Below, one piece after another: positions 1 through 32,790 of a stretch of DNA of 64,000 nucleotides (position 1 is the first letter of the stretch; each line of letters begins with the position of its first letter). Under the pieces are notes generated by a model. That model was not told where the DNA came from. It saw only the letters and a list, made by a program, of their open reading frames with translations, and searched no databases. A program made the translations under genes and the position numbers. This DNA comes from Ricordea florida (Eukaryota; Cnidaria; Anthozoa; Corallimorpharia; Ricordeidae): positions 25,645,669-25,709,668 of the forward strand of contig OX453274.1 of the NCBI GenBank assembly GCA_949710005.1, read 5' to 3'.

Positions 1-3000
1 CATCTTGCCACGCGCTGTGCACTCTCTTCTGTAAGATTTGCCCCTAGCCCCTTGAGACATGTTTTCAGAAGTTTGATAAACATTTCCATTCGATGATCAA
101 GGGAAATGTTGTGTCCTGTCTTGCCTGTGATGTTGAAGAAACGGTTCCATACCAATCTAAAAGCTAAGGATTCAGGCAGAAGGGCAGTTACTTTCACAAG
201 CAGAAGAAGAACTGTGTAGCTGTATTTGGTGCAGCCATTCACCTTGTAGATTGGGAGGACTATCTTATATAAACGCATAAGACGCTCTCCATCACCCTCC
301 TTGACTGCATCGTTAAAGTCGGTTAAGATAAGACCAAAGATGAGTTTTGCTCGATGATAATTGAACACACAGTCTTCCTTTTCACTTTTTTCTTCATCCT
401 GGTCAACTTCCATTGGCACAAAGCCATCATGTTTCCTTCTCTCGTGCCTGAAACACCCAAAACCAAGCATTAAAAATCTTTTCACAGCAAAGCAAGTACA
501 TGTAAGTAACATATAAAAATGGATGTTAAACAGGCTGTTTGCCTGATGGGCATTCATGTATCCTTTAACAGAAATTACTGAGAGTAATTTTCAAGCAAAT
601 ATAGATATTTTCAAAGAAATTTGTATTGATCAAAACTGCAGAAATAGACCTTGCTTGCTTAACTTTTACCGTAAACCCTTTACAGAGGGTGAAAGCAGGA
701 CTTACAAAAAAATCTGAATGCCCAGTTTTCAGATCCTGATCAAAAGTCTTGGGAATATTTGCTTGAAATATTATGATATCCAAGAACAAAAGACCATTGT
801 ACTGAATATTGATGTGGTTTACAGCAATACCTTTTTAAGATTGGTCTAAAGTTTAAACTGAGGATTGCTTAATAGTTGCATCATTCAACTTAAATTTTGC
901 ATGGCAAGTTCAAAATACCAGCTGGAGGAAATTAAGTTATCAGAAATTAACATTACACATGTTGTTTACAGGAATGAAAGTTTTTTTTCTACTTACTCTT
1001 TCCTTGTAGGAATGGTCCTGAATACAAAGCCACAGCCAGCTTTGCAGCAAAAGTACCCTTCTTCATCACGCTCAACAGAAGGGTGTCTTAAACCATGTTT
1101 TTCAACTTCATGTCTGTTGTCAATGAAAATAAAATATCACTGAAGTACCCATGGGTAAGCTGTGAGATTATAACACTCAAAACCCTATTACGGTAGCAGG
1201 ACTTGTAACACACACAAGATTGAGCACATTTCAAGGGCAATTTATTGAAAAACATGTCTATCTTGTACTTGACTTTAAGTGTGATATTAACAGGGACCTA
1301 CTTCAAAATTTCTCCCCACAATATCAATAATTAATCAAAAGAAAAGGTTGTGAGTAATACAATAAGCACAAAAGGGACTTCCATTGATCTAAAATATTCT
1401 TCTAACTACATGCAATACAAATTAAAAGAAAATGTATGGAGATTACTCAGGAGAATTTGTATCAGGATCCTGAGGCTGAAAGGGTTCACATTAATTATTA
1501 TGTTTAAACACATACCGCACTCTCCAAGGATGGGCAACGTAAGTTTTGCTGCAATCGGGATGCCTGCATTTGTATCCCTCTTTTCTGTTCTGGTCCAGTC
1601 GCTCCACATTATCACTTACTGTGGGCATCACCTGGTCAAACACATACTCTTCCAGATATTTTTGAATGTGCCTATAAAGCCATTGCCTTCGCTGTAGGGC
1701 AGGTTCAGCTGCATTTGGCATCTTCCCCAGTTTAGTTGGTTTGTCTATCAAAATAAAAGGGGGAAAACCAGAGTGAAGAGAGAATGTTTAAAAAACATAC
1801 CAATTGATTAATAGTTAATAAAAATGAAATTCACAGTTACATCACAGCATCTTGTAAATTATGAGAATTTATGCAACCACATACCGTAGTCATTATCAAT
1901 AAAGGCCACACAGAAAAAAGAAAACTTTCAAAAATAATATCAGTTTGGCTCTTAGCAAAATCATTTGCAATGCACTTGGCATGGCTTCCAGCAATGGTTT
2001 ACAGATGTATATTGTTTTTATGCAATGCAAATATGTATAAAATGTTTTACCTGTTTGGTCTTTCATTCCTGAGAATACCATAAATGATGCAAGGATGTGA
2101 GCTTGTAGTTCCCTGTCATGAAACTCTCTGTATGCATTAAAATCCTTTTCTGGGCCTCTTTTGGCATTAATCTTGCCAGTGCGATGCATTGAAGCACAAG
2201 TAGTACCCAGGTCACCAGCAGATGCTTCATTAAAAAATGTCTTGTATTCAATCTGAAGAAAAAATGTGTTGTTCCAGAAAATATCCATACTCCCACAGAA
2301 TTTCTTTTGGCTTCAACCTCCCTCCTCTCCCATCACAAAATTTATTAGTATCATGCACGCTTACTTGTTATTGAGCAGCTTTTCACAGCACTGCATAAAA
2401 TTTTATTATGATCCTTGTGACAATCTGAACCAATAAATCTGAAATAGCACAACATTACCTCATATAGATTTACTTTTGCATGCCAGTCTGCATGAGCAGG
2501 TTGCAAACCCTCTAGTCGGTTAAATGCATTGTCCCCATCTTTAAATATCAGTTGACAGTTACGAGCCCTTTCTTCGATTAGTTGGTCTCCATCAAAAATT
2601 ATCAAGTCAAGCAACTTTCTTGTCTCACCACTCCCTTCTGTTGGAACATACTTCTCCTGGTTACGAATAAGTAGCTCTGTCATCTCTCCAGCAACATTTG
2701 GATTTAAAAATTGAAGACCAAGCATACACTAAACGAAAAAAATAATTAAACAAATGAGAGAATTAAAGCCCAGGGGAATGAATACTCTAAGAATCTTGAA
2801 TGCGAGCCTGGATGCACATATACAGCCTGTATATGACAATACCCCTTCTACCCCCATCTTTGCGGTTTCTAGGTTTGCAGTGGTGAAGTCCACCAGTACA
2901 CAATAGGGACCTTTAGCAAAGAGGACAAGAAGGTGAACGTCAATGACCAGAAGTTTGAAAAACAAACCTTGATGCTACTGCGCATGCCCAATTGATTACG

Positions 3001-5066
3001 AGTCGTTGTCCACATATCGTACAAGACGCCATTTGTAGCTTTTTGCAATTTTAACAAGAACATTCAATGTGGCTTACAAATATTTATTACAATTTTGTTA
3101 GTGAAAACTTACAACTTCAGATTTTTCCCTTTGCTCTTGAGAAAATGGATGAGGAATATGGTGGATAATTGTGTCTTTCAGGTAGTGGAACTCAGCAAGA
3201 AATCTGGTAATGACACGGCTCACCAAGACAGTACAATCATCCTTGAAGGCATTCTGTACACCAGCAGTTGGCAGGAGCTTTTTCAACTCAAGATCTTTAA
3301 GCTGGCACTGTGGGGTTTTCTCCTCAAGACTGGCATTAGTAGGAACCCTGTCCCGAACAGCATATTGGTTTGTCCAATGAATGGACTGGTTTGAGTGCTG
3401 CCTTGTCTGGATTCGGGCTTTAACACTTAAATCAATGTTATCAGTCACCAACCTAACAAAACAAAAATGAAATTTCCCCCCCCCCACCCCCACAAAAAAG
3501 TCAAACTTTTACTCATCTCAACAATTCAGTGGCAAAAAAACTGTTTAGTTTTTTCCAAATGAAACAGTTATGAAAGATAATTAAAAAATATCTAGTGCAA
3601 ATATGAACATCAAGAAGAAAATAATGTCAGGAACATACAAGGTAAGCCCTAGTAGTAGTAAAACAATTGTCATCACTAACATACCTGTAACGTCTTAAAG
3701 TCAGTGGCTCCTCGACTTGCATACCAGTGCTGCTGCATTGATTCGCTTCCACTTCTACAGATACAGTGGCACTGGTGCTCACCTTTTCCTTTTCGACTGC
3801 TTCTTTCCACTGAAGGACTCGAGCATCGAAATGTTCTCCCATTTCCTTTTGTTTCCTGACAGTCTCCGAGTGTGACATACAGATTCCAAGTCGGTTAAGT
3901 CTGGTGAGATCTGCAGTTTTTGCTCCACTGTGAAGAAGGATTGACGAAACCCTGTAAGCAAAGGCGGACATTCGGCCGTTTCTTTTTTTCGCTAGTACAG
4001 CTGTGGCAGCGGCTATTGCGTTGATCGTCTTCCAGTCCATTTCCTTCCGCTTGTCGATCAATCCAGCGCTCCCCAGGACACAGGAATAATAAATTGGGCA
4101 TTTCTTTGATATTTCGTCTAACAGCGATTTATTTGTATACTTCACTATTTGCTCAGGGGATTTCATCGTCAGGGTGGAATTGGAATGACAGAACCACTTG
4201 AAATCTCTGTTTACCGCTTTGGTAATTGCATCCTGAAGATAAGGGAGCGCTTCTTCAACTTTAAACAGCGTGTTTACAACATGTTTCCACTTCCGCTGCA
4301 GGATGTACGTTATCATATTCGAAGCAATACTGTTTTGAGGTGTTCTTACTGTTAATCTAGAATCCGAAATGACCACCTTCATTGAACATTTCGGCTTCGC
4401 GGTAATTTCACTTTCCAGCGATGTCAATTCCTTGATGAACATATTGTCGCTCAACAGATCCTCACGAACACTCTCCACTTTATCCTTCATTCCTTCGTCC
4501 ATTGCAAGAGATCTGCGAGCGCCAAGGGAGGGTAGCTTTGTCTTGCTTCCATCATTTTTGAGGGCGGTCTTGAACTCTTTTGATTTCTGCGAGCCGTGTG
4601 GTGACTTAGACATTCGCTTGAATCTTCCTTCGTTTTCATCGTGTTCTTTGCCCTGGTCGAACTTTCCCTCATCTTCTTGTTGCTCTCCGAAAAACTGGTG
4701 AGTGCGATTGAGTTCCTGCCGTATGAACGTAATAGACGGCTCCGCGTTTCTCACTTTGGTTGCACATTTTCTGCACACACGAGGGGAAAGTGAGTCGTTT
4801 TTCAGTACTGAAAATCCCAGCCGCCCAAAAATAGTGTTTAAAGAAGGCCTTTCTTCTCCCTTCCTACAAGAGGCGTTGAAAATGTTTTCTGTGCTGATGT
4901 AGGATGTCTTAATAGGCTGTCGATCCTCTGAAAGTTCGCCAGAAGTGCAGCTTTTTGATGAAAAGTTTCCATAAATTGTTTTCAACGAGCACTTACATAG
5001 ACGACAAAAATCAGACACAGTCGGCTTTACAATATTAACCGACTTTTTTGGCGTGGAATCGTTCAT
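1..5066 (-). CDS. DUF6589-family zinc-finger protein, seven exons, 3' end outside window
   Basis: Seven minus-strand exons with consistent phases: 3685-5066, 3113-3452, 2459-2728, 2051-2252, 1516-1744, 997-1113 and 1-447 (continues off the left edge). All introns have GT/AG ends. The N-terminus has a ZAD-like cysteine set (CRLC near residue 21, CRKC near residue 98) and a basic linker. Exon 3 carries DUF6589-type signature residues (GDQLIEERAR, then RLEGLQPAHADWHAKV). Exons 5-6 form one C2H2 finger (CRHPDC...HEVEKH) and exons 6-7 a second (CKAGC...HERRKH). Exon 7 has the helical DUF6589 tail. The start is the first ATG of the long first exon. I recall this family as multicopy in cnidarians and possibly transposon-related. 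Its function is unknown. No stop or frameshift interrupts the visible exons, so it may be active. Confidence 0.85.
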
Positions 5067-14043: not shown

Positions 14044-14175
14044 GTGAGTTATTGGCTCTGGTTTCGTTCAACTTCCTCAAGTACGTTTTGCCCGACACTA
14101 GCAAGGTTTTGGCACAAGTCGTAATATAGATCATGTGGCTGGGTATTCTTACGGCAGCTCGTAATTTCCTTTCAG

Positions 14176-14553
14176 ATGCAGCAATAACATGGACCCAGCC
14201 TCCTCCTCCTCACACACCATCAGATTCATCTGATATTCGTACCGCGTACCCAGTAATATTAGTGAACGGCTCTGCGGTGGAGAGGTTAACTTGGAACTAC
14301 ACGCTGACGGGAGAAACACTCAAGGAAATATCCTGGGAAAAGAATGGAGTCATAGTTGGCATTAAAGAAGCTTCAGGTTCCACTGGCATAGTTCCCGATG
14401 GAAATAACTTGGAACATTTTAACATCAGTTCCACTGATCCAGCCACGCTGATAATTTATGATGTAACAGTGGACGATGAAGCACTATTTAGCTGTAAGGT
14501 ACAAACTAACTCTTTCAGGGAATGGTCGGACAACATACAGGTTACCATTCAAG
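14176..14553 (+). CDS. Ig gene exon 2, V-like immunoglobulin domain
   Basis: The exon follows a pyrimidine-rich acceptor (TTTCCTTTCAG) and ends at GTGAGT. It encodes 126 codons with VERLTWNYTL, then ISWEKNGVIV and DDEALFSCKVQ. The usual first Ig cysteine is replaced in LTWNY; the Trp and the second cysteine are present. It reads as an N-terminal V-type Ig domain. Confidence 0.75.
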
Positions 14554-15004
14554 GTGAGTAGCATTTTTGTCAAGTCGACTTTAAAGAATCATTACGATGA
14601 AATGCAGCTCGTACAACCTGCGAGGGCAAGTGAATTCCACTACAAAACTACGTGAATGTTTATATCTCTCTTATATTTCCTGATCTGTTATGTGGTCCGG
14701 TGGCCTGGAGCCTAGCTGTCGAATCCCATCTATAAAAAGCTTTAGTGCTTCAAAAAAGGGTGGTCTGTTTGATGAAATCACAAAGGCATGCCATTCCATA
14801 CTTTATTTCTTCCATTATAATGAATGAATGAATAACTTTAGTTAAGTGTGAAACTAAAATTATAGCAGTAAATAACCACTAAATGAGGACACTATAAATA
14901 AATTAAATTAATAAAAACTATTTACAATTGATAAAACGAATATGAAATTAATAAGATTATTTACATGTGCATAATTGTTGAGTGTGGCTTAGAACTATTT
15001 ACGG
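14554..15004. other. Intron sequence with possible LINE tail
   Basis: No exon. The tract near 14818 (TGAATGAATGAATAA) looks like a non-LTR retrotransposon tail. Flanking sequence on both sides of the MITE at 15005 could be one old LINE fragment on the minus strand, but the match is weak. Confidence 0.3.
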
Positions 15005-15149: not shown

Positions 15150-15642
15150 CCCTATTTACAAATACATACCGTTATAGACTCAATAAAATACTAAAGTGTC
15201 TATCATGTCATAAGTGTCTATCATACGTAAAATACAATCAGAACAACAAGTATCAGCCAGTAAGGAATTTAAATCAAATTTTCTAATACGCTGCCTAAAT
15301 ATAGATAATGCAGGAGAGTCATAATTACCTAAAATATGCATTGCTTGGACAAGTTTTGTAATACACAGCTAGCTTCAATGTAGAAGTATACTTACATTTA
15401 AAGTGCATATGAACCGAAAATTATTTTTATTCAGTTAAAATCTTTATAATTTAAAATTCTCGATTCCAAAGTTTGAGATGTTTTGAGTGAAAATTGCCGA
15501 TTTTATTAGCGATGGAAGTTGGCCTATTTTGTACCAAGAAATGGTCTTCAAATCGCGCGGTCAAAATACCACGTGACTGTATACCGATGACGTAAATTAC
15601 GTAATTTTGGTTGCATCTTGAATAATTCAAAACAAAGCAACT

Positions 15643-16035
15643 ATGGCGGAGAGTTCCAAAACACCGAAAGCGAAGCGAAGAGGAGGGCGATATTGCGTCG
15701 CTGGAGCCCCAAACCAGCAAAGTTGTAAAAATACCTCCTTTACTCCTGGAATACGTATGCATCAGTTTCCATCTGATCCGTCTGTGAGAGCTCAATGGCT
15801 GCAATTTGTGCGTCGCCATAGGCATGACTACAAAGACCCGACCTCGAAGTATGCTTCGTTGTGTTCGGCACATTTTGACGAATCGTGCTATGAAAGGAAG
15901 ATGTCAGTTGCCAGGTCAGTGAAGAAAGAGTACAATCTTGAAATGAGAGTCTTTTTGAAACCGACTGCCGTGCCAACGAGAGATTCTGTAACCCCTCAAT
16001 CACCAGAAAAGATAAGCCAGCGAGGAAAGAGGAAG
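15643..16035 (+). CDS. THAP-domain exon of transposon A
   Basis: MAESSK starts the frame. The THAP C2CH finger is complete: C at YCVAGAPN, hydrophobic MHQFPSD, W at AQWLQFV, C and H at LCSAHF, and the terminal AVPT box. It ends at an AAG|GTAAGA donor. THAP domains bind the ends of their own elements. No downstream DDE exons lie before the convergent gene, so the transposase is truncated. Confidence 0.75.
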
Positions 16036-16794
16036 GTAAGAATTTCATATGTTTACACGCTTAGTACCCACAAAGTACTTATGTACGCTGGCTTTATGTA
16101 CCCACAAAGCCAGCGTATCATCCATCTATAAGCCACTGCCCGAATGAATCTGGAAAAAAAAAACGATCACGGCTAAGCAAGGAAGTATTCTGAGGTCGTA
16201 TCTATAGATCTTGTCACGGACCGTGTTTTGAAAAGCATCGTGACGAGTTGCTAAACGCGAGAGAAGTTACGGCGTGTGTATGAGCATTCAGTGTCGAATA
16301 ATTTTTGTAGAACAACCGTTTCCAAAAACGAAAATAACAATAGAACACTCAAGCTACGCAGTACAGTATTCTACTGCCACATTTTCGGAGCCGTGCCTAC
16401 GCGCATGAATTTTCCCGGTTATTAATAATTTTTCCCGCAAAATTATGGTCGGCAAATGCGGTTTTAGCCCCCAATCAAAATAATTTTGTTGCAAAAGTTT
16501 GTTACTTTGCAACTTAGATTCGCAATTCATATGTTTTTGAAAAAGCCATTTAACGGAAATTATTGGACATTGCATTCTCATACAAACGCTGTAATGTCTT
16601 ACCCGTCAAGATGGCTTTCAAAACTGTGGCAAGCTCTAAACAATTAACACTTGCCCTTGTTGTCCTTGTCCTTCTAATTAAAAGCTACCCTAACAGCGCA
16701 AACACTACAGCAAAAATTTCTAGTCTGCAAAAATAATAAAGCTTGCAAGGGAGAGAATAATAAAAATATATTCGAAATTAAATTTATTGCTTAC
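16036..16794. other. Middle of transposon A, no gene
   Basis: Short inverted repeats (TACGCTGGCTTTATGTACCC, then CCCACAAAGCCAGCGTA around 16065-16115). No transposase core or third P2RX7-like exon was found. This is the likely deletion junction. Confidence 0.45.
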
Positions 16795-17388
16795 TCGTTC
16801 TCTGGAACTCCTGATCGTCGGCGGTAGCTTCGGCCATCTTTGTTTCTCAACAATGGAGCCACTTGAAGAAGAACCGTCCTGTTGCTTAGAGCTGCGTAGT
16901 CTTCATGCTGTGTTATACAGCTGATGCGTTCGATGGATCCATCGAAGACAAGCTTCCCCGATGAATGGATCACCTCTCTACAACATCGAAACTCCAGCGC
17001 CCCAACTAAATTCATGTCATTGCATTGCTCACATTGGCACCTGAGAAGGCAGGGGAAAGAATGTGGACATAAAAGACGAGCTTCTCCAAAACAAAAAATG
17101 AAAGAAAAGAAAAATGCAATACAAATTATTTTGAAATGGCTATACAAACCAGGAAGTAACTGGAAGCGTTCTTTCATATCTGGCCTCTAAAATAGTTGGT
17201 GTAAGGCCATCCGCATCGGCATCTTCGTTCTCTTCTTCCATATCTGGTTCGGCGGAGGCGTCTGCAAGAGGTTCGTCTTCATAAGGTTGAACTAGAGTAA
17301 GAACATCATCATTTTCTATTTCCTCTTCTGGATCTGTTACTTCTGAGTCGCTTTGTGCAACGCTGCTTATTTCCGAGTCGCTTGACAT
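16795..17388 (-). pseudogene. P2RX7-like C-terminal-domain gene of transposon A, last exon missing
   Basis: Exon 1 (17150-17388) encodes MSSDSEISS and a long acidic segment. Exon 2 (16795-17040) has CQCEQC, then FRCCREV, then ERISCITQHEDYAALSNRTV, matching the Cys-rich module of the P2X7 intracellular tail (CxCxxC...CCxE...CIxxHxxF). It ends at a GTAAGC donor. The exon that should carry the conserved AYRxF segment is not found. It is convergent with the THAP gene. I know of this module in cnidarian transposons but not its biochemical role. Confidence 0.65.
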
Positions 17389-17625
17389 CTCTTGTAAGCT
17401 CTTATGCGATCGTGTAAACACAAACTCCCGGTGCAACCAAACTGACGTCACTCGACCCAGTCTCCTGTAATACTTTGACCATTTTTTGTTACAAAATAGG
17501 CCAACTTTCATCGCTTATAAAATCTGCAGTTTTCACTCAAGACATCTCAAACTTTGGAATCGAGAATTTTAAATTATAAAGATTGTAAGAGAATAAAAAC
17601 AATTTTCGGTTCATATACACTTTAA

Positions 17626-19512
17626 GTATTTGTTCCTCAAACTACAATGTATAATTAGCCCCTTTGGTGCCAGAAAAACAACAACTACCTGTAAACTAGA
17701 GTGAATAGCACAGACGTACTAGTTTTGTTTGGTTTGAAGAATTTTCAGCCAGTTCAAATTGCATTCTAACATGCATAACAATAATTTTAGACAAAAAGAG
17801 ACCAAAAATCTAACTTATAGAACCAAAAAATGGTACAACAACATATTAACCATTTTATTAAAATTCGAAGCCTTTCCTTCATGGTACAAGAAAGAATTAT
17901 TTTATATTTGAAATTACTTTGCCACGTACATCAAATTTGGTTTGTCTGTTATTAGGGCCTTTTCCGGACTAAAACAAATTTGCAATTGCTGTTTTGTCCA
18001 ACTCTTTTTTAGACTTTACAGCAAACCAATGAAACCATGCAACTGAAAGTGAAATTGCCTTGGCATCTGATGCATTATATCTGGTAGTCAAGTCTCTCCT
18101 TAAATCGAATGCAGTCAAAGTGCATAACAGTTTTACATTCTCTATGAGGCATGATGTTTGCTGATACTTTTTTAATAACAATTTTTAAGCAATTCATGCT
18201 GTAACTATGTTACCATTACAATTTAGCTGATAGGCTTTGTTTCATGAGTTAACCCTTTAAGCGCCCAAGATCAATATTCATTTTCTCCTAACTGTTCTCA
18301 TATATTTGTTATGGTACTTGTGATGAGCATTTGTTAAAATATTAGTACAATTCTTTTTTTGGTGATAATTTTTGGTGAACAGTGAATAATTACTGTAATA
18401 AGAATTTGGATCCTGATCACTACTGGAACTTACAGGGTTAATGAAAGCCAATCAGACTGGTATGTAATTTGACAATCAAGAAATTGAAACATTTGCATCC
18501 TAGGATAATTGGATAATATTAGTCATTGCACTAGAGTTTGTGTTGAGTGATACGTAATTGCTTCCAAAAAAATTTCGTCAACTGTCAATGGGCTTGACAT
18601 CATTAAGACTCAGGCTACGAACGAGAGCAGCAGATCATTTCACGAGCCATTGACAACAGTGGTCCTGCTCCTTCAGGACGCGCTTTAAGTCAACTTTATC
18701 CTGTAAACTCCACTTTATCTTTTTGTGCTCCTGGCCATATTTACAAGTTCAGTCACTGCAGCATCAATGATGCCGTTCAGAAGAGCACAAGTGATATAAA
18801 GCGGCGAGGGTACAAGCGTATCTTCATCGAATTTTCAGATTCTGAGTGATCTGAAAGCGTTTTGAACGTTTAACTTTGTTTGAGAAAGATGCAATAACTT
18901 GTTTTTATTAATTTTCAAAGTTGAAAGTTTGTCAGCAGGCTATCTTTGCACAAAAATAACATTTCATTCAGCTCTTTTGTGCATTTGTAGTGATTGACTC
19001 TTTGTCAACATTAAATGGCTTCCTATGACTGATTACTCAAGAGCGCATTCAGAAATTCAGTAATTTTTCCCTCTATTTCATTAACAAGTTATCGCAATGG
19101 GCCCTTGTAGAATTAAGGATTCACTTCTGTTTTCAGAAGTTGCTGAAATTGCCCTCGTCACAATTTTACTCGGCCCCATGCGATTACCTATACTAATACA
19201 AAATGATGTTCTCTTTGAACAGAAATTATAGGTAATATTAGTTTTACCCATTACTAATTTTTTATTGTTTTGAATGATAACAACTTTCTTATGTACAATA
19301 TTAGTCTACAGATATTACACCTTAAAATTTTAATTTGGTCCCAACCTTCACCAATACTGTAAGTAATGATTTATAACAATTAAATATCAATAAGTGTATA
19401 ACAGAAACATTAAAAGGAATACTTGAAATAATAGTAATGATAATAGTAGTGATAATGATAATAAAACATAATACAGTTTCAATGATCATTATGTTTTTTC
19501 CTTTTGACACAG
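17626..19512. other. Intron of the Ig gene, nothing recognised
   Basis: AT-rich, with many short frames without support. No exon with both splice sites and Ig residues is seen. Confidence 0.5.
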
Positions 19513-19785
19513 TGGAGACCAAACTCACAAATGTAAGTGACAGTCAAGTGGAGTGTGAAGGTTCCACTGTTACTCTGTTCTGTGAGGCAACAGGCAGACC
19601 ACAGCCTAACATTACCTGGACCAGAGTATTGGATAATGGTTCTGATGGTGAAATAATTCAACATGACACCAGTGCAGTGTTGGTATTGAACAATATACAG
19701 AGAAATCAGTGTGGAACATACCGCTGTACAGCGTACAATGGAGTTGGCAGGTCATTCAATCAAACAATGAATGTGACTGTAGATT
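19513..19785 (+). CDS. Ig gene exon 3, C2-type immunoglobulin domain
   Basis: Acceptor TTTTGACACAG, donor GTAAGT, phase 1-1. Cysteines lie at VTLFCEATG and TYRCTAYN, with Trp at NITWTR. It has NIT and NQT/NVT glycosylation sites. Confidence 0.85.
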
Positions 19786-19871
19786 GTAAGTGGTACTTAA
19801 GCAGTAGTGTCTGTTTGCATGTAATGTAAATATAATAGTGTACACACTGAGCAGCTAGATGGAAAGGGAGG

Positions 19872-20172: not shown

Positions 20173-23100
20173 TTAAAGTGCTACTACGACGAAATTTTCA
20201 CATAACTTTTTTTTCAGTTCAAAAGCTAGGTAACATCCTTGAGAACTTTACTTCCAATTTTCGTTTTTGTAAGATGGCAAGAACTGTATTATTTTAGCAC
20301 TCAAACTCTTCGAATTTTCGCCCGCCATTAAAACGCCATGTTCTTGCGACCTGGTTACCAATGGCCACAGGCCAGGTCGCAATAAAACCTTCGTGACGTC
20401 ATTTTCTTAACACATGGCTAATTTCTCATACGATTCTGGCGAGTTTCTGCTTTCGCAGACTGTTATCTTTTCAATATGGTAGGAAGTCGTTGTATTGTTC
20501 AGGGATGCAGCAACCGCACAAACAGAGCGTTAGGCATTGCTCTGCATGCAAGTCCGACCGATAAGACGAGAGATATCTGGGTTCGATTTGTAAGAACTAA
20601 AAGAAAGAATTTTTTCCCTCAACCTCGGGCTCGCTTTGTTATTTGCTCGGCACACTTCGAGGAACACTGTTTTACTCGCGCCTTTGACCCAAGGCAGCGT
20701 CGGCAAATTAAACCTGGTTCTTTGCCAAGCATATGGAAAGAAGAGGAGCCATCAACACACATCGACTCCCCGAGACAGCGTCGCATGAAGGACAAGGAGC
20801 GTCAAAAGGTTAGCTTAATCTTCCAGCATTGTCGTGCACGATATGTGTGATTTTTCGCCAATTCTATTTACATTTCTTTAAAAGGAAAAGTTTGCGTATT
20901 ACAAAAAAAATGGCTTGAATTCCCAAAAGTTGGATAAATGCTTGTTGAGCTTTTCCTTTTTTTTTCGAATTTCCACTGCTTGTCATCGGGATACATTGTA
21001 CCAAAGAAGTACTAAAGTCATTCTTATTTTTTGAACAGAATACATGGCCTGCATCGCATACAAGATCGGCAGATTTCATGAAAATTGTTGAGAGCTGCGT
21101 TTACATGGGATACGTGTAGCGATAATAATAATTATTTCAAAAGATAAACAAATAGTCGAAATTTAATGCTTTACATTTTGCGAAATGCTGTAAGTTATCC
21201 GACTAACCAAACGCAAGTTTGTGTTTGATTTAGAGATAAGCTTACATATCGTATTTTTTATTTGAACAGGTTTTGAAGGAATTGCTAGAAGAGACAGCCT
21301 TGTCAGGTGCCTGCAGCACCAAGGATAATGCGAAAGAGCCGGTAAGTGATTACTATCTACATTACATGACTAAAACACGTCCAAATAGTTTATCTGAATG
21401 TATTTTTATTCGTTAATGAAGGATTTGCTGGAGGAATACGTCTCAACAGCTGCCTGCAGCACTGATGATGATGGAACTGTGCAGGTCAGTTGTCGTAATC
21501 TGTTTCTAACAATCAAACATGACCAACAACAATGTTGGAAAATTGTAACAATTATGAAAAGGGGTTAATGCACATGCACTATGTGCTAAAGAACCATGCT
21601 TTCTGAATTCTTGTAGGTTGATTCTTTGTTGACCAATGCAGGACATTCCTTGACAAATGCAGTTTTGGTTGACAATCCAGAGTCATCCAAATTGCTCAAC
21701 GAACATGAGCTGGCATGTGCACTTCAGGATGTTGCTCCCCAGGCATGCACCCCAGCTGAAGAAACAGAGGTAGTGGAGGGATCAGTGCAGAATAAGAGTC
21801 CTGAAGAATGTTCATCCTATTATCCATCCGATAAGGTATTATAGTTTGTAACCTGGCTGATTCGGGGTGTCTAATATCCAGAAAAATTGCCCCCATTTTC
21901 GTAAATGTATTCTTTCTACCTAGTAAGGAAAATATGCATTTCGAAATTTAATGTAAACAATTAACATTCTATTTCAGCCAGCCAGACAGCCAGTTTGTTC
22001 AAGTTGTACTAATCTGCGTCATCAGAAGAAAAAACTGCAGAGGCAAATACGTTGTCTGAAGACAAAACTCAGTACCAGTCAATCCACATGGGCTAACACC
22101 ATTGAAAACATTATCACAAGGGCAGAGGTAACTTCAACAGGTCAGCACTATATTGTAGTTCAAGCAACTTGGCAATTAACACTGCATTCTCACTGAGGTT
22201 ACTTATTCAAAACAACATACATTTCAGAATCTCAAACTGATGAAGTAGAAATATTGGACAACAGTGAATGTGATCTAGACAAACAGATGCACTGCTTAGA
22301 GGCCTGCATTGATGATGACAAGGGCACCGAGGAGGAGAAAGATCATCTGGATATATGTGATGAAGGAGATCCATGCTGGACACCAGAAGAAGCTGACAAT
22401 GCTTACCAGCAAGCAGGTGATGACAACTGTGATCAGGAGCCCAGGTCAAGGTACACGCTTGCAGTAGTTTGCTTACAAAGTTATTGTTACCATGAACATT
22501 TTTGAGAAAATTTTATACTCAGGAAAACAATATTACAATTATATTGTTCTTATGAATTTAACACCTTCCTTACCATATTGCTAATTTGTATGTTACAGGT
22601 TGAACTGTGAGGGGAAAAACTACAGAGAAGAACCAAAAGGAATAGTCTTTTTGTCCAAATTACTATTACTGTTTCAAACTTGCCACTGGTGCTTTGCAAG
22701 CAGTCCCATTATTTCTATTTCACAATCTGGAACCATGCTGACCATCCAATCATCTTGTACCCAATGCAAACGAGAGTTCACATGGACCAGTCAGCCCTTA
22801 ATGTTGGGGAAGTTCCCTGCTGGAAACCTCTTGCTTAGCTTTAGTATTCTGTGTTCCGGTGCATCAATAAACAAGATCTTGCTGGTGTTCAAGCACATGG
22901 GTGTACTTGTTTACAACTTCGGATCCCCACATATTTCCACCATCAACGTCACTTGCTGATACCAGCGATTGTGAAATACTGGAGAGGTTATCAGGCTGGC
23001 CTTCTGCAAAGACTCGAAGGCCAAGAGGTGGTGCTTGCTGGAGATGGCAGACACGACAGTATGGGCCATTCTGCAAAATATGACACTTACACCATATTCT

Positions 23101-24226
23101 GTTGTACCATTGGCTATATAATCCACATTGCGTTGGTACAGGTATTAATGTTACCCTCAATTAATACACACTAACAGTAATTTCAGGTATTACAGCAAAA
23201 GGGCCAAAATATGCTGTCACTAATACACTTTAGAGTACAATGCCATTTGAAACAATTTTTCCTTTCATTTTACTTTTGAACAACATCTAAATACATATTA
23301 AGCAGCATATTCATAATCAATGACCTGTTGGAAAAAAACATATTGGTAGCTCCTCTTTTCATTCCTTTTCAGGCAAATGAGGCAGGTAGCAGTTCGGCAA
23401 TGGAGTTCATGGGCCATCAACAGGCATTTACATTCCTCCTTGGGACAGCAATGATTATTACAGCCTTCATTTCAGACCGCCACTCACAGATCACAAAGTG
23501 GATGAAGGATGAATGCCCCCAAAAAATGCAGGGATCTTGGGAAGCCTGTAATTGATCATTTTTTTGACCTCTGGCACATAGGAAAAAGTGAGTTGCAAAA
23601 TGCAGTGAAAGTATTACTTTTGTTTACATCACCAGCAAATCAAGTGTAAAGACATAGTTAAGACAGCTGTAGTTATGAGCACAAAAGGTTTGAGGCATAT
23701 ACATTACCTGCTTTGTCTAATGCACAAGTTGCTTCCAATTTGGTGTAGAAATTCAAAAGATTCTTACCAAACTGAGTAAAGAAAAAGGTATGGAGGCAAT
23801 TGGTAGATGGAAAAAAGCCTGTGTTCGCCATTTTTATTGGTGTGTGACATCTACACAGCCAAAGCTTCAGGAAGTAATCCTTGCAAAGTTCCGATCCTTT
23901 CAGTATCACGTTCTGAACCAGCACACAAGCATACCAGAGAGGCTTTTCAGCAAATGTGCACATGGTGCAGTTACTACGCAACGTTTGTGGCTCACAAAAG
24001 GTAAAAATACATAGTGAAAGAGAGTTTTGTGATGTTTATGAACAAGTCATGTGTGACCTTGTTAAATTAAATAAAGAAAGCAAATTCCAAGGCAAAAGAG
24101 CATATCTCAGAAGCAAGCAAAGAACATAGCATTATAATTTGCAAAAAAATTATTAACTGTTAATCAAAATTGGAAATGTGAATTCACAGTATATTTATGA
24201 CTGCTTTATCAGTGTGAAAAGAATAG

Positions 24227-24393
24227 CCCATTTCCGAGTTGCTACATGCCTCAGTTTCATAGCGAGTCCAGGTGCAAGACCATTCAAATGGAAATGATAG
24301 AGTATTCTTATGCAAATTAAACTCATTTCCATTTGAATGGTCTTGCACCTGGACTCGCTATGAAACTGAGGCATGTAGCAACTCGGAAATGGG
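24227..24393. mobile_element. Foldback with 70-bp perfect-looking arms
   Basis: Arms 24227-24297 and 24323-24393 are complementary (CCCATTTCCGAGTTGCTACA against TGTAGCAACTCGGAAATGGG), with a 25-bp loop. It sits in an intron of the element B transposase. Confidence 0.9.
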
Positions 24394-26777
24394 AAGGGCG
24401 GGGCATTGCCATATATGGCCTATATAGGTATGTGCCGCTGTGAAGGGTATGGTTTTCGAGGAATTTACTACAGCATAGGATATATGCTATACATATAGGA
24501 TGGGGTATCGTTTTTCACAAAACTGACCAGTTGGTTGAAGATTTTATCTGGAAAAAAATCTGATAAAGTATAAATAAATCTTTTTTTTGGGAGAGAAACA
24601 ATTGCGGTATAAGGTTTTGTTGTTGCTAGACTGTGGTAGTGAACTCAGTTTCTGGAAAACAGGTACTGTAGGATATCAGTGACTTTGGGGGTTTACCCTG
24701 GTATAGGCTACGGGTTCCAGCAGCACATCCCCACCCAGACATTCCTACAGTACCCCCCCGGGGGTGTACACTAAGCCTGATATTTACTGTTTCATTTACA
24801 TCAGGTTCTGAGGTGTACAACAACCTGTGTGAGGCACTCAACAACTCTTTCTTGCTCAGGGGAATAAAACAGGCATCACCAATACAGCAGACGAGCTGCC
24901 TTGAAGGATACCACTCTGTTGTCAATCAATTTGCTCCTAAAATGTTGGCATTCTCATACCTTGGAATGAAATGCAGGTAATAATCAAATAAAATAATTAC
25001 GCTGAAAAAGAAATTAAAAGTTAAGCCTGCTTTATTAGGTTCATGTTTTTTACATTACTGATAAAAGTACTAAGTTTTGCACATTTATAGCCTTTGATGG
25101 CAATGTTACTAATAGATATGGTGTCCAGCTCAATACAGCCAAACTGAGGTAATCACAAGTATCCAGGAATCTGTCCTCTGCAGTCTATATTAAAGGTGGC
25201 AGTGTGAAGGCCTATCTAAAGAGCCTGTAAAAATTTTGCATTTAATATTTTGATTCTTCACTTTTAAACCACCAACTTATGTAAATGACAGTTAGTGATG
25301 AATTCTAAGATTATTTTTATTTGGTGCTTTCCATACTGATCCCTCACAACTTTTGCAAGTCCCTTTCATGATAAATAAGCCTTATTATTCACTTGTATTT
25401 CAGAACCATTCTAGCTGCTCTCCACTTCAATTGGAATGTGGACAGAGAGAAGCTGAAGGATCCTCAAGGCAACACTAAACTTCACGTCACTTACCCTAAG
25501 TTTAAAGAGGGGGAAGGAACAGTCAGGGAAGCCCGTGTCAAACAAAATTATGGTATGATGGGCATTTTCCTTGTGAACACTTCAGTTTAACAGAAATGGT
25601 GGGGAAACAATGTTAGATGAAAAACATAGGTTTTTGAACGTGAAAAATCAGAGGGAACTGCAGCTGTAGTTATCAATAGAATACTTTTGGATTGATGAAG
25701 AGAAACATGTGAAGGTTTGAAATAACACCCGTCATTTATCTAGCTATCAACAAGTTGTAACTTCAAATACTTGTTTAATTCAAGGTTATGTTGCTGAAAT
25801 ATTCAATACCCTGGTAACAACACCAAGGGCAGAATTGAAACAGTTAAGTGATGAGCTCAGAACTCAAGTCCCACAGCCACTTCATAGCATGCTCAAAGAC
25901 AAGGAAAGCACCGCTAAGGCGAAGGAAAAATTTTTGAGAAGGAAGAAAAGGAAGACAACAATAAGTCCACCAACATGTTCAGGTACCATGGATGCATAAT
26001 TTATATCTTTATAGGGTTACAAAATATTCAAGAAAAAAGCTTACTTACCTTAAGTGCTAACAAATGAGTTTAAATTTGGCCTGAATACTAATCACACTCA
26101 GTGTACCATAGAAAGAATTTGTGACCTTCTTTGGGAAAACGGACACTAACGCTTTTCCGTTAAACGGTCAAGAAAAACGGTTGTAAACGGATACTAAACG
26201 GTTAAGTTAACCGTTTAAACGGATAGCAAAAAATTTAAACGGTTGACCAAAGTCCAAAAACGGATAGCTAAAAGCGTTAAACGGCAGAGCAAAAAAATAA
26301 ACGGTTAGCTTAAAACGTTAAACGGTTGACCAAAGTCCAAAAACGGATAGCTTAAAGCGTTAAATGGTTGACTCGGCGAGATCGCTTGAGGAAAAACTAT
26401 CAGTCTTGCAATGTTTAACGAATATCTTTGAGCGTAAACATGAAGTATAATAACTTGGTAGATAATAACTGGGATACATTCTGTGAACGAAAAAAGTACT
26501 TTCGTATCTGATGAACTTTAGTTGGGTTAATACTTCAAAATTTATTCGTGCGCTTGCTTTCTCGCTTGTGTATTCTATTTCTGGTTAAACTATTGCCGTT
26601 TTCGTTCAACATTACGGTGATTCTCTTCTCTGACGTTTGTTGAAATAAGCATAATTTACAAAGGACAGTTTCGCTGCCAATATCTCAACATGAACGGTCC
26701 TGAATGGCTACTCCAAGAAACGCTTCAATGACAAAAACCGTAACCTCTGCGGGAAGCAAACAACTAGTGGATAATTA

Positions 26778-27833
26778 CCGTATTTATTCGCCTATAAGCC
26801 TAGCGATTCTTGCAAAAAGTTTTACTCAGTTTTGGGAATTTTTTTCCGAAAAGGGGGGTTCGGCTATAGCCGAGAGTTTTGAATAATTTTTTTCTTCGAA
26901 GCGTCATCAACAAAGTGAAAATCATCATGGACATTTCTGATTCGGCTAATAGCCAACTCAGTTTCATGAAATTATAGTAAAACACAATCATCGAGTTCCT
27001 GTGAGTCCTCGGAGTAAATTGCGTCGTCTTCCGTTCCGTCCATAGCATTGGAAATTCCACAGCTCTTTTTAAAAGACTACTTTACCATCTCCTCTGGAAT
27101 CTCTTGCCATGCTTTCTAAATCTGGCCAATCACAAGCGTTCGTTCCCACGGGTTGACAAACGAACTCACGTGCACTCGCTCGTGTGAAGAGATCGAGGGA
27201 AAACTTTTTTATCGATTTCGATGATAAACAATCAATTGAATCTACACGAAATGTTTATCCCATTTCACATGAAGCGATTAGTACTCACCTTGATCTCTTT
27301 GGTCTGAAAACCATTCTAACATCTGCTGGTCTAGCTCTGGATACTTTGGAGTAAAGCGGCTCAACTTTGTTCGTTTCGCAGACATCTTCAACTCGCCGTT
27401 GAAAAGCTTCGCCTCGTCTCTTCTCCATCGACGAACCATCGACTCGCTAATCCTGTAATCTTGGGCGATCTCTGAGTTGTTTTCAACAGCCTCAGCTTCA
27501 GCAACAACTTTGAGCGTAAAAGCCATGTTGTAAGAAGTACGGCGAACTTTTGGCATGATGAATACGATCACGGATCGGACGATATGTAAACTAACTGTTT
27601 ACAATAAACTATTGAATATTCATTTGGTTGTGTTTATTCGTTCAACAATCGACATATGTTTCCTGAGAGAGACGCTTCAAAGGTGAAATTTTTCTGTGAA
27701 ACTTTGGTCTCGGCTTATAGCCGAGAGTTTTGCAATTTTTTTTCTTTGACAAGCTTAAAGCCCATCGTCGGTTCTCTTTAAGTTTGGGGTCTCGGCTTAT
27801 AGCCGGGATCGACTTATAGGCGAATAAATACGG
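26778..27833. mobile_element. Pogo/Tigger-like element D nested in element C
   Basis: The termini CCGTATTTATTCGCCTATAA (26778) and TTATAGGCGAATAAATACGG (ending 27833) are inverted and flanked by TA, the Tc1/mariner-type duplication. A second motif GGCTATAGCCGAGAGTTTTG / GGCTTATAGCCGAGAGTTTT recurs near each end. Confidence 0.85.
27278..27571 (-). pseudogene. Pogo-type transposase, N-terminal DNA-binding part
   Basis: From the Met at 27555: MPKVRRTSYNMAFTLKVVAE, then a helix-turn-helix (ISESMVRRWRRDEAKLF) and KYPELDQQMLEWFSDQR. This is the CENP-B/brinker-like DNA-binding region seen in TIGD and pogo proteins. The frame ends after about 90 residues, so the DDD catalytic domain is missing. The element is non-autonomous. 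Confidence 0.75.
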
Positions 27834-29019
27834 TATACGTTGACAAGAAATTTTTCAATAACGCCTACAACAGGCGCAACTAACTTTTTATACCTTCACG
27901 AAACGATAGCCATCTTAAATTATTCATCATCTTCTCCTTTGTTTATTGTTGTTTTGCTGTGAAGTTGCACGAAACAAATTTGCATACGCAATGAACTGCA
28001 AATGACGTGAAACGCCGAGTGCTGAGAAGCATCAGGGTCAAATAACGCCAGAAATGATTCGCTTTCTAAAGAAGTTTGAGGTTTCAACATTACGCATTTT
28101 GGACCTTTTTGTTTCAAAACATAGCTTTGTGTCCCATAACTATCGAAAGATAATGCGCCGCAATAAAAACTTGACGGCAGCATCGGCGTCCTTACGGTTA
28201 TTCGCGACTCATTCGCCAAATTCCCGCTAGCTTGAACCAGGAAAAATACCATTCCCATAGAAATTTAAAATAGCATGCCGCCTTCAAAGGGCATTTCCTG
28301 TAAGTTACTTTATATGAAGTTTCATGGCAAATAGAAAGTCGGATCGGTGTCAAGCAACAACCGGAGTCTCCCTTTTTATAAACGGATAAGCAAACCGTTT
28401 AAACGGTTTCCCTAGAGCGTTAAACGGATGCAAATTTTTTTAAACGGATAAGCAAACCGTTTAAACGTTTTCCCTAGAGCGTTAAACGGATGCAAATTTT
28501 TTGAAACGGATAAGCGAACCGTTTAAACGGATATAAACGGATGGTAAACGGTTTCGCCGTTTAAACGGATATAAACGGATGGTAAACGGTTTCGCCGTTT
28601 AAACGGAAAAGCGTTAGTGTCCGTTTTCCCAAAGAAGGTCACATTTATTCTGTGTACAGCATTAATACAAAGTTAGCAACCACAACAAGGTACCCTGATT
28701 GTTATTAATTTGTCTGGTTGGTCTTTTGTCGGATGCCGAGCTGAAGCAGCTTCAAGACTCTGCCACAAACAGAAATGTTGAGAAAAGACCAAGGAGAGCA
28801 CCAACATGCAAAAAATGTGGTCAGCCTAGAAGAGGACATAAGAAGGGACAGTGCTCTGCTCCTACCAGGGAATAATATTAGACCTTAATCATGACATTCA
28901 CAATTGTTGGTGGCAAAGGAAACTGTATTATTAAAGGGTGGTGATACAGAATACAGTTTATTTTAATTCACCATATATACACAATGCAAAATGCTGTTAC
29001 CAAAGTTTTGCTTTAATAA

Positions 29020-30329
29020 TCAGTCCTGGGTTTCTTCCTCTTCATAGCCTGTGTACTCATTACCCACATTAGGAAATGTCTTTCGTATACTGTTGTACAC
29101 ACAGTTGGGCAGTGGAATTCTCCTTGAGGCCCCAACATACCCATAGACAAGGTGCACAAATTGGCGATATGCTACAGACCGCATGAACCTGAAATAAAAA
29201 CTGTGATGGTTAGCAGAGCACAATGCATGTAACTGTCCTTTTTGGGCCCACTGGCTCTAATGGCACATATGAAGGCAACTCATATCCTTACTTTTTTTTT
29301 CAAATAATCATTTCCGTATCCTCACATTTCGATAAATGATGACAATATACAAGTCCAGGGTTAATACAAACATGTCCTCTAATTTTTTTCTTCATTTTAT
29401 ATAGGTTGATGAAAAGTACCTATCATTTCATCTCACCAACAAAACATTGTCTGACATTAGTAAGACCTTCAATTCGCTTTGTTTTCATGATGTTGAAAAA
29501 AATATCAGAAATTAAATAATTGCACTCACTCGGACTCTGCTGCGTTTCTTTCCGTCTTTGTAGTACTGTAGGTCTTTTTAGCCGTAGTCTTGAGGCGTAT
29601 AGCTGCAGTGGAGAGGACCCAGCTGTTCAAACAACATGCTGCATAGCCTGGGTGTAAGGTGATACATTCACCTTCCTTATCGACCGCAAACATACTCTCG
29701 TTGCACCTATCCATATCTATGCAGCACCAACACTCTTCCGATTTTGTGATACGCTCAAGGGAGCAATTGGAACATTTACACCTACACAAAATGTGATGTA
29801 GAAAAGAAAGGAATCACATGATAATTTCACCCAAACGATCAGCTGCCGTAGTATTCAGCCGATATGTGCTCACTGGCCGCCGAGGTCAACGTCGCAGAAG
29901 CCATCTAAAGTGATACTGAAAAAGTTGCTGTATCTACGCTCACCATAGACTAAGCTTACTCTTTGAATTCGAGGCTGATTAACAAGGGCTACGTAATCCG
30001 TAAACGTATAACTGTGGATTATATTAAAATGCTTGTAGTATGGTGAAAGATTCTGTATTTGTTAACACGAATCAGGGCATGAGTACATACCAATTCCCAA
30101 TGTCTTCCTCTCCAGAAAAACGGCTGAGCAATATCTGCTCTTCTTCCTCCTCCAAATCCAGCTGCTGAAGATACTGTGAAACTTCTTCTTCGGTCGGAAC
30201 CGGCTCTACAGAGTCATCGTACCCAGCTATTTCGGTGGACGATGTTTCAGAGAGGCTCTCGGCCTCACTTTCGTCGCTAAAAGTATGATTACTTTCGCGT
30301 GAAGACGAAGGTGAAGGCGAACGAGACAT
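29020..30329 (-). CDS. P2RX7-like C-terminal-domain protein of element B, intact
   Basis: Three exons join in frame: 30091-30329, 29530-29781 and 29020-29188. Exon 1 encodes an acidic Ser/Glu-rich leader (MSRSPSPSSSRES...EEEEE). Exon 2 encodes CKCSNC, CWCCIDMD, ECITLHPGYAACCLNSWVL. Exon 3 encodes MRSVAYRQFVHLVYGYVG and RIPLPNCVYNSIRKTFP, then a stop. The order of Cys clusters followed by AYRQF...IPxCVxxxIRxxFP matches the cytosolic ballast domain of P2X7, here without channel segments. It has no breaks. It lies tail-to-tail with the transposase. A role in transposition is inferred only from repeated co-occurrence. Confidence 0.75.
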
Positions 30330-30721
30330 TTTGTGGCGAGAAAAAAGCAAAATATACCGAGAGGACGCTAACCGGAGTTAAGAAAATGACGTCACGAGAA
30401 CAAGACAATAGATCAAATGGCTATAACTGCAGCCCATATCGCAGGCTCACTGGAACATAAATTTGCAATGGCGGACGTAAAAAACGAACTTTTCGGAGCT
30501 AGATTTTTCCAGTTTGCGCGTGGTAAACCTTCATTTCAGTGAAAAAGTAACTTACAGTCTTTATTAATAAGTTGATTTAAATGTTTTTTTTAATAAGTAT
30601 GACATGAAAATTTCGTCGTAGTAGCACTTTAAAGGAAATGTAGGAGCGAGAGCTTTAAAATTGAAATAAAGCAATGGAAGATTTCGTCGAAAAATGACTT
30701 AGCGTTCTAAAGGGAAGCGGC

Positions 30722-32042
30722 ATGGTTGGTACCAAACACTGTTGTTGGGGTGAGTGTAAGACAGACTCAAGATATGCAGATAAATGGCCAAAATTACTCA
30801 AAGAGTTAGAGAAATCGGGGAAGAAAGTATTCATTCCTTTCCCAAAACCTTCGCGAGACATGGCAAAGTGCAAGCGTTGGCTAGTGGCTTATTCGCGTGA
30901 ATTTGTTACGGAGAAAAACATAACAAGAAACACTTATATTTGTGCTCTGAAGGCAAATCTAAGACCAGCGCAACTAAGTGGAGCACATGCTCCAAAGAGA
31001 AAAGCACCGAAAGAAAGAGAAAATTCAGCGTCAAAAAAAAACAGAAATTATTCAATGAAAACTACGAGGAACAATTATTTAACGATAATACAGTTTCTGA
31101 TGATCATGATCAGGGGTCATAAGGAGTTGAACCGACAGTCGACGAAAGCAGTTTTATTGATGAAGAATGTGTTGATGAGGAACGTGACGTGATCGATACA
31201 TACATTTACAGTAACTCTTCAGGAAAGCTGGTTTCTGATCAAGACTCTCAGACTATATATTCAAAATACGAGTTGTCTGCAAAGGTCGAAACTATGATTT
31301 TGAAAAACGACGTCTCTACAACGCAGGTACAGGGTCCTACAATAGTGAATACCTTATCTTACGAAAATATCGTGCAAGATGCAGCTCTCATGAAACACTT
31401 CACCGGCCTCAAGCCTTCCCAGTTTGAAGTTTTGCATGATTTTCTTGACGATGTTTGCCCTTTAGAGACAATCAACAACTGGAAAGCAAGGATTGCTCAG
31501 CAACAGAAAACGCAAGAACTGGCCCGAAAACTGATTTTTCATCAAGAGAAAAAGTTTTCATTTGCCTTCTGAGACTGAAGAGGGATTTTACTTTCAAAAC
31601 TATTGCAGCTCTTCTTAGTACACCAAACAGGAAAATTAACTGCTCCTATATTGGAAAGATTTTTACAACATATATTCAGTTGATGTGTGTAATTTTTAGA
31701 GACATGCAAAAGTTATGTTTCCAGAGAGAGAGCCCAATTTTGCAGGTTTCTCCCTAAGGTGTTTAAAACCATGAAGAACATACGCTGTATTGTTGATTGC
31801 ACGGAATTAAGTGTAGAATGCTCCAGGAATTTTGCCAGGCAAGGAAACACTTTCTCTTCCTATAAGCACACCAACACATTTAAGTGTCTCATTGCTGTAA
31901 CCACCAGTGGTGGAGCATGTTTTATTTCTGATTTGTTCGAGGGTGATATTGATGATGTTCGCATCTTTAAGGAAAGTGGCCTTTTGAAACACCTGAAACC
32001 ATATGACTCAGTACTGGCAGATCGTGGTTTCACTGTGCAGCA
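30722..32042 (+). pseudogene. THAP + DDE_Tnp_4-type transposase, broken
   Basis: The start MVGTKHCCWGECKTDSRYAD leads into a THAP-like finger (VFIPFPKPSRDMAKCKRW, TYIC), but the expected His-Phe after TYIC is missing. Further frames give TGLKPSQFEVLHDFL, then (shifted near 31545) LLRLKRDFTFKTIAALL, a stop near 31757, and [17 protein letters not shown]...[20 protein letters not shown]...[13 protein letters not shown]...[10 protein letters not shown]. The Asp residues in VDCTE and LADRGF are the usual DDE_Tnp_4 catalytic positions. The C-terminus with the final acidic residue is lost. Confidence 0.75.
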
Positions 32043-32129
32043 AGGATCACAAGAGGCATGAAGAACAGCACCACTGTTCACAGACAAAACGACAACAACA
32101 TTGTGCGGTTGCTCTGCTCTCATCGAAGG

Positions 32130-32706
32130 CCAAACGTGAGTCCTCACTAAACAATGGCGGATCGCCGTTTACCGTGTCCATCATATCGTGAGCAAAGCCC
32201 GAATCCACGTACTTTCTTCCCCTTTTCAAAGGTTTATTCCTCATGGGCCCCAGCCCGTCTTCGATGTCTTCAGGGTGATCGGCAACATTTTGGATGGACT
32301 CTAGCGCGTAGTAATACACGTGCCCATAGTTGGAGAGCGAAGGAATGTTTTGAGACGGAAAAACACACCAGCCAGTCGACGGAATACACGGAATGGATAT
32401 CGATCCAGAATTTGTCTTTACATCAGAATTTTCGTGAAGAACTTTGGCAGCAAACCATTTTCCATGATCGATTGCCGTATCAAGGGTGTGATAATTCCCG
32501 CTTCTCACACTGTCTCTCACTCGCTGTACAAGATCTTCTCGTTTACCGCTTGATTTTAAGCCTCTGCATTTTAGCCACCGTTTTAGCTGGTCTACAGTGT
32601 ATTCTTCCGGTTCTCTTTCAAATTTGGAGCCAGGAACGCCGTCCTCTTCGGTCAGAACTGTAAGGGAATGAAGCAAACTACTCGCCATTTCCCTTGCAGC
32701 TCTCAT
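32130..32706 (-). pseudogene. SAP-domain protein of element E, N-terminal part
   Basis: MRAAREMASSLL (or from the inner Met) leads to a SAP DNA-binding motif, YTVDQLKRWLKCRGLKSSGK then REDLVQRVRDSV, at about residues 35-67. YGHVYYYALESIQNV follows. The sequence after about residue 195 turns into unrelated Cys-rich reading at the deletion junction. In related coral genes the SAP domain is followed by SWIM or YqaJ-type domains. These are absent. Confidence 0.6.
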
Positions 32707-32790
32707 AGAAGTCGAGTTTGTTTGTCTGAGTCACGCGGGGGGTCTAAAATTTCATGACGTCATTAGTACAAAGCGCTATTGGAGATGTTT

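Follow-up and report, generated by a model that had tools for sequence, protein, structure and literature searches.

Element B, at positions 20173-30632 of a 64,000-nucleotide stretch of contig OX453274.1 of the corallimorpharian Ricordea florida (the window; positions 25,645,669 to 25,709,668 of the contig in assembly GCA_949710005.1), is very probably a decayed copy of a Kolobok cut-and-paste DNA transposon of the Kol0 type that carries, besides its transposase gene, a gene for KolX. The published statements used here are taken from excerpts of the papers cited. In those of PMC9587614 (Kojima and Bao 2022), the Kol0 lineage of Kolobok encodes KolX as a second protein similar to the ballast of the receptor P2X7, P2X7 arose by fusion with KolX, so that the direction was from transposon to receptor, and Kol0 is found among vertebrates, annelids, cnidarians and sponges. 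The pairing that an earlier note on this DNA had called unexpected is therefore already in the literature: element B belongs to a real multi-copy family of a published type and is not a new kind of element. Nothing categorical separates it from published Kol0, of which it is a further cnidarian-type family; the convergent layout of its two genes, the classes of deletion derivatives and the constraint within one genome are additions to the account excerpted from PMC9587614.

Structure and classification of element B

The arms of element B (20173-20200 and 30605-30632) are 28 nt each and 100% complementary. At six other places in the genome, sibling copies can be aligned with it as far as its ends and differ in the flanks outside. 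Because these siblings sit in different flanks, the outer four bases of the arms are the TTAA target-site duplication (20173-20176 and 30629-30632), leaving terminal inverted repeats of 24 bp at 20177-20200 (plus strand; the same left end in the six siblings) and 30605-30628 (minus strand). TTAA stands on both sides in the window and in five of the six siblings, the duplication of L012 being altered to TTTA/CTAT. Elements A and B of the window and their relatives have AG...CT ends (5'-RR / YY-3', R being a purine and Y a pyrimidine). The perfect arms and the shared ends in different flanks bear out the earlier proposal that element B is bounded by true inverted termini. Among the matches listed, KolX exon 2 is at least 98% identical at seven loci of the genome, the window counted, and the near-identical siblings of element B point to recent activity of the family.

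Three siblings (L009-L011) measure 7,954-7,958 bp including both TTAAs, as against about 10.5 kb in the window. The true full length is thus about 7.95 kb, since the window copy holds a nested transposon of about 2.5 kb with 45-bp inverted repeats, foreign to element B, between transposase exons x9 and x10 (26120-28643). This insertion is a later arrival; it is missing from four siblings (L009-L012), and L009 shows the empty site. In two other siblings, L013 and L014, KolX exon 3 and the last exons of the transposase are gone.

The transposase gene lies on the plus strand. Its THAP DNA-binding domain is encoded at 20476-20808 (Pfam PF05485, 49.6 bits; 97% identical to sibling L009), and comparison with sibling exons places the rest of the gene found here as follows: exon x4 at 22600-23141 (by tblastn in two frames, with a frameshift near 22920), with a putative first catalytic D in GDGRHDS; x5 at 23373-23586, with a frameshift near 23520, a putative second D in SDRH and a DLWH motif; x6 at 23748-24002, a zinc-finger-like H/C region, and x7 at 24807-24977, with the putative catalytic E in SCLEGYHS, both also conserved among relatives; x8 at 25405-25551; x9 at 25784-25957; and x10, the last one found, at 28732-28863, with a CCHC knuckle judged by eye. 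The GDGR, SDRH, DxWH, H/C and SCLEG blocks are common to the family of element B and its relatives L051 and L052; at the DxWH site another relative, L022, has DLWL.

KolX is encoded on the minus strand, convergent with the transposase, in three exons whose splice sites were placed by eye: exon 1 (30329-30091) specifies an acidic N-terminal region; exon 2 (29781-29530) the zinc cysteines; and exon 3 (29188-29020) the last zinc cysteine, conserved arginine and glycine residues and the stop, the last two exons being supported by Pfam and by alignment to P2X7 as well as by the spliced reading. The product is 219 amino acids long with no internal stop, and matches Pfam PF20478 P2RX7_C (E=1.2e-12) and, over residues 457-592, solved P2X7 (E=0.002). 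The Pfam matches and the layout thus confirm the earlier description of two genes in one transposon, a THAP transposase gene and, convergent with it, a gene that resembles the P2X7 tail but lacks the channel. Each KolX exon reads open in the window and in L009-L012, and the transposase pieces compared (the THAP exon and x4 onward), which carry two frameshifts in the window, are unbroken in L009-L011. An intact KolX beside a frameshifted transposase, singled out by the earlier note, is ordinary copy-level decay, because L009-L011 have both genes unbroken in the exons examined.

Seventeen KolX sequences were aligned to rat P2X7, element A included; that element was omitted for exon-3 residues, where it has no exon and is misaligned, leaving 16. 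C477, C479 and C482 are kept in all 17, C498 and C499 in 16 of 17, and C506 and C572 in all 16 sequences that cover them. Among the positions that contact guanosine diphosphate (GDP) in P2X7, as listed in the excerpts of PMC7016195, R546 is kept in 15/16 and R578 in 16/16, whereas H547 is found in 3/16, K583 in 1/16 (L044) and R574 in none. The R546/R578 pattern agrees with that of ballast-domain proteins outside deuterostomes in the same excerpts. Of the two residues named as GDP contacts in the excerpts of PMC9859053, L569 is kept in 8/16 and A567 is not among the common residues, and position 566, phenylalanine in rat P2X7, is arginine in all 16. KolX thus resembles the P2X7 C-terminal ballast and nanor in its zinc cysteines, R546 and R578, and differs from P2X7, which has a channel, in largely lacking R574 and K583 and in its arginine at 566.

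The Kolobok superfamily is described by TTAA duplications, RR/YY ends and a THAP plus DDE-type transposase (excerpts of PMC9587614 and PMC6004289). Element B fits Kolobok because it has the TTAA, the AG/CT ends, the THAP domain and a DDE-type core with a DxWH block; the C/DxxH motif and the zinc finger before the last E are present by motif, with the DLWL of L022 as the deviation noted above. The mark of Kol0, represented by the Kolobok-1_XT type, is a second protein with similarity to the P2X7 ballast and seven cysteines, and both are found. The piggyBac elements share the TTAA duplications; element B differs from them in its Kolobok-type RR/YY ends, its THAP domain and its full cysteine set.

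A THAP domain also occurs in P-element transposases, and the domain confirmed in element B would also suit a P-superfamily (THAP9-like) transposon that had picked up a P2X7-like gene. The P superfamily makes an 8-bp target-site duplication, whereas that of element B is TTAA, with differing printed flanks beyond it, and accompanies AG/CT ends. Scanning pieces of the transposase against Pfam gave no P-element domain, but also no transposase family of any kind, and Kolobok transposases carry THAP too (excerpts of PMC6004289). The P-superfamily origin is accordingly very improbable, and the assignment was rejected on the target duplication and the lack of P domains in those pieces. The THAP part of the earlier transposase call stands, and the type is Kolobok rather than P.

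Two further features lie within the boundaries of element B. Inside the nested insertion, a smaller element (26776-27835) has perfect ends of 23 bp and holds a helix-turn-helix-like frame (matches below Pfam cut-offs), which makes three nesting levels. A transposase intron holds, at 24227-24393, a palindrome with perfect 71-bp arms inside unbroken alignment to L009-L012, probably an old miniature inverted-repeat transposable element.

Genome-wide pairing and constraint

KolX was sought in the genome with Pfam P2RX7_C, giving 150 matches (best 150 of 329 candidates scored), and with exon 2 of the KolX of element B, giving 140 (best 150 of 217); two transposase queries gave at least 151 matches (best 150 of 215 candidates scored) and 117 (best 117 of 345). 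Only the best candidates of each search were scored, and the KolX and transposase totals are lower bounds. Merging used all 150 P2RX7_C matches, 108 of the 140 exon-2 matches (32 duplicates or second pieces omitted) and 144 of 150 matches of the first transposase query (6 second pieces omitted), to which the second query added 28 loci from its 117 matches, the others being loci already listed or second pieces. The pairing statistics were made from these lists, the THAP-match list being left aside.

A listed KolX lies within 12 kb of 88 of the 172 listed transposase loci, in convergent orientation at 87 and in tandem at 1. Over 500 random placements, which used a guessed length for C16, the mean was 2.19 and the maximum 8, so the co-occurrence that the earlier note had proposed to examine is well above chance. 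Seen from KolX, 88 of 247 listed matches have a listed transposase within that distance, as do 27 of the 51 best P2RX7_C matches.

The same searches bear on whether the transposon captured its P2X7-like gene from the host, in keeping with the earlier framing of a receptor module put to use by a mobile element. P2X channel exons gave 15 matches grouped at three places, against at least 247 merged KolX matches; no channel domain was found on the same gene as KolX, the nearest channel-exon match being 1.98 Mb from a listed KolX. The direction published in PMC9587614, as excerpted, is moreover the reverse, and capture of a host gene is extremely unlikely.

Between divergent families, Nei-Gojobori estimates are saturated at silent sites (raw proportions of differing silent sites from 0.72 to about 1.0, beyond correction), and counts rather than ratios are therefore given. 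Between the window and L016, KolX exon 2 has 42.5 silent changes at 47 silent sites and 19.5 replacement changes at 181 sites, and exon 3 (33 codons) has 17 at 23 and 6 at 76; comparison with L022 is similar (43.5 silent against 20.5 replacement changes in exon 2, 16.5 against 5.5 in exon 3). For the transposase, exons x4-x7 of L009 and L022 differ by 183 silent changes at 253 sites and 82 replacement changes at 908 sites, the C-terminal exons x8-x10 of the same pair are looser (59.2 at 95 and 62.8 at 352), and the THAP exons of L009 and L016 differ by 51.8 at 72 and 45.2 at 261. KolX is about as conserved as the transposase core, and the selection analysis proposed for the P2RX7-like frame comes out on the side of constraint.

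Two listed loci stand apart from these counts. L051 (C9:16703000-16712899) represents a Kolobok transposase family at 50-51% identity; it has 11 listed copies, and no listed KolX lies within 12 kb of any of them. L031 (C12:18677000-18686900) consists of five tandem units of 1,829 bp; the KolX frame is split in two in each, and an intact gene cluster was rejected on this ground.

Element A, deletion derivatives and neighbouring sequence

Element A (15398-17625) is a TTAA-flanked Kolobok-type element of 2.2 kb with long inverted repeats, its arms being 149 bp and 92% complementary. It has a THAP exon at 15643-16035 on the plus strand (PF05485, 55.2 bits; ends by eye) and, on the minus strand, KolX exon 1 at 17150-17388 (splice sites by eye) and exon 2 at 16795-17040 (KolX profile E=4.7e-07). 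No KolX exon 3 was found in it, nor any match to the catalytic exons of element B; the earlier statement that it repeats the pair holds for the THAP exon and the first two KolX exons. Element A is like a class of elements with THAP and KolX and no transposase core.

This class was met among the 20 loci fetched as the top matches to the KolX of element B besides the window, a biased sample. An end finder, run without a shuffle control, found matched TTAA ends at 14 of the 20, with agreement at 15-16 of 16 bases in 13 loci and at 14 of 16 in L027. In L016 it also returned two pairs, matching at 13-14 of 16, that look like chance. A 3.5-kb family of nine copies (L016-L021 and L023-L025; 98.6-99.5% identical to L016) has the THAP exon and KolX, matched TTAA ends in eight (L025 is cut) and no match to the catalytic exons.

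The opposite class keeps the transposase. L052 reads through exon x10, and L053 has only KolX exon 1 before its right end, a region that L055-L057 match at 99.6-99.7%; transposase elements with KolX exon 1 only, lacking the ballast exons, have thus multiplied (L052, L053, L055-L057). Each gene begins near one end and reads towards the middle, so that an internal deletion keeps the first exon of both; element A and the short THAP and KolX elements are explained in this way. Since both classes of derivative have multiplied, the transposase and KolX products would each probably be supplied and act in trans.

Further KolX loci differ in structure. L030 is a TTAA-ended element of 2,284 bp that sits within sequence resembling reverse transcriptase and has an open KolX frame (frames judged by eye). 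It and L029 represent a KolX class in which one exon holds the ballast domain, and where a THAP exon might be expected L030 has a frame convergent to KolX with a KRSRGRP stretch and no Pfam match. In L052 a 1541-amino-acid open frame (7-4629, minus strand) reaches the locus edge and abuts the Kolobok copy at a copy-specific junction; one of three pieces has an endonuclease VII-like PHROG match (E 2.1e-06), and there is no Pfam match. A composite of Kolobok and this large frame was considered and rejected, since the four other copies compared all part from L052 at one and the same base, L053 going on into KolX exon 1 and a right end; the large frame is a copy-specific neighbour. L054, a fifth stretch compared with the L052 family, gave no match.

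In the window, element B is adjoined by a different element that has a plus-strand DDE_Tnp_4 frame (30698-32061; 9.9e-24), upstream of it a THAP match that is weak and below cut-off (E 0.06), and a SAP-domain frame in antisense (32047-32730, minus strand). Elements A and B are flanked by frames (14130-14561 and 19377-19829) that resemble immunoglobulin-domain exons on inspection by eye, and the two elements may sit in introns of a host immunoglobulin-family gene.

Weight of the evidence and the role of KolX

Several observations count against reading element B as one of a family of two-gene Kol0 transposons. None of the core pieces scanned matched a Pfam transposase family, so the DDE core is assigned by motif, and the Kol0 placement rests on features rather than on a tree. 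No listed KolX lies within 12 kb of 84 of the 172 transposase loci, and 159 of the 247 listed KolX matches lack a listed transposase at that distance. This bears on the refuting condition set by the earlier note, that the P2RX7-like gene should lie mostly outside such termini; among the minority of the 159 that were inspected, several are internal deletion derivatives inside matched TTAA termini. When L015 and L026 are compared with the window or L009, the ratio of replacement to silent substitution rates in KolX exon 2 is relaxed (0.43-0.93), which fits copies in decay. Six of the nine 3.5-kb copies have a stop in KolX, the same exon-2 stop in five of them and an exon-3 stop in L025, and so does L022, which has transposase exons; KolX is therefore dispensable in cis.

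We suggest that the THAP-DDE transposase would bind the element's ends and carry it to TTAA sites by cut-and-paste, and that KolX, a predicted ballast-fold protein with the zinc cysteines of P2X7 and conserved arginines in a zinc-stabilised fold, would help or regulate the transposase in trans, for instance while the end complex is put together. That KolX assists transposition is moderately probable. It may instead be a passenger gene without a role in transposition: the transposase family with only KolX exon 1 multiplied, as did copies with KolX stops. Its convergent placement in 87 of the 88 paired listed loci, a frequency of replacement changes as low as that of the transposase core and the wide occurrence of Kol0 in PMC9587614 (as excerpted) nevertheless make a passenger quite unlikely. 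KolX might also be a brake or an agent against the host (a repressor, a copy-number control or an antagonist of silencing) rather than a helper, and the short THAP and KolX elements could supply such proteins in trans; the KolX stops in six of the nine such copies tell against this, and we consider it unlikely. A more specific form of the helper role is put forward only tentatively: KolX would be a zinc-stabilised trans co-factor of a two-component system, and a pocket with arginines at P2X7 positions 546, 551, 566 and 578 would bind a nucleotide or a DNA end and gate assembly of the complex.

The window and its relatives show KolX, from which the P2X7 tail is proposed to derive, copy by copy within a single genome, and the deletion classes that separate the two genes make the function of KolX testable. 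If the proposed pocket is real, the GDP site of P2X7 would be a remodelled leftover of a transposition switch.

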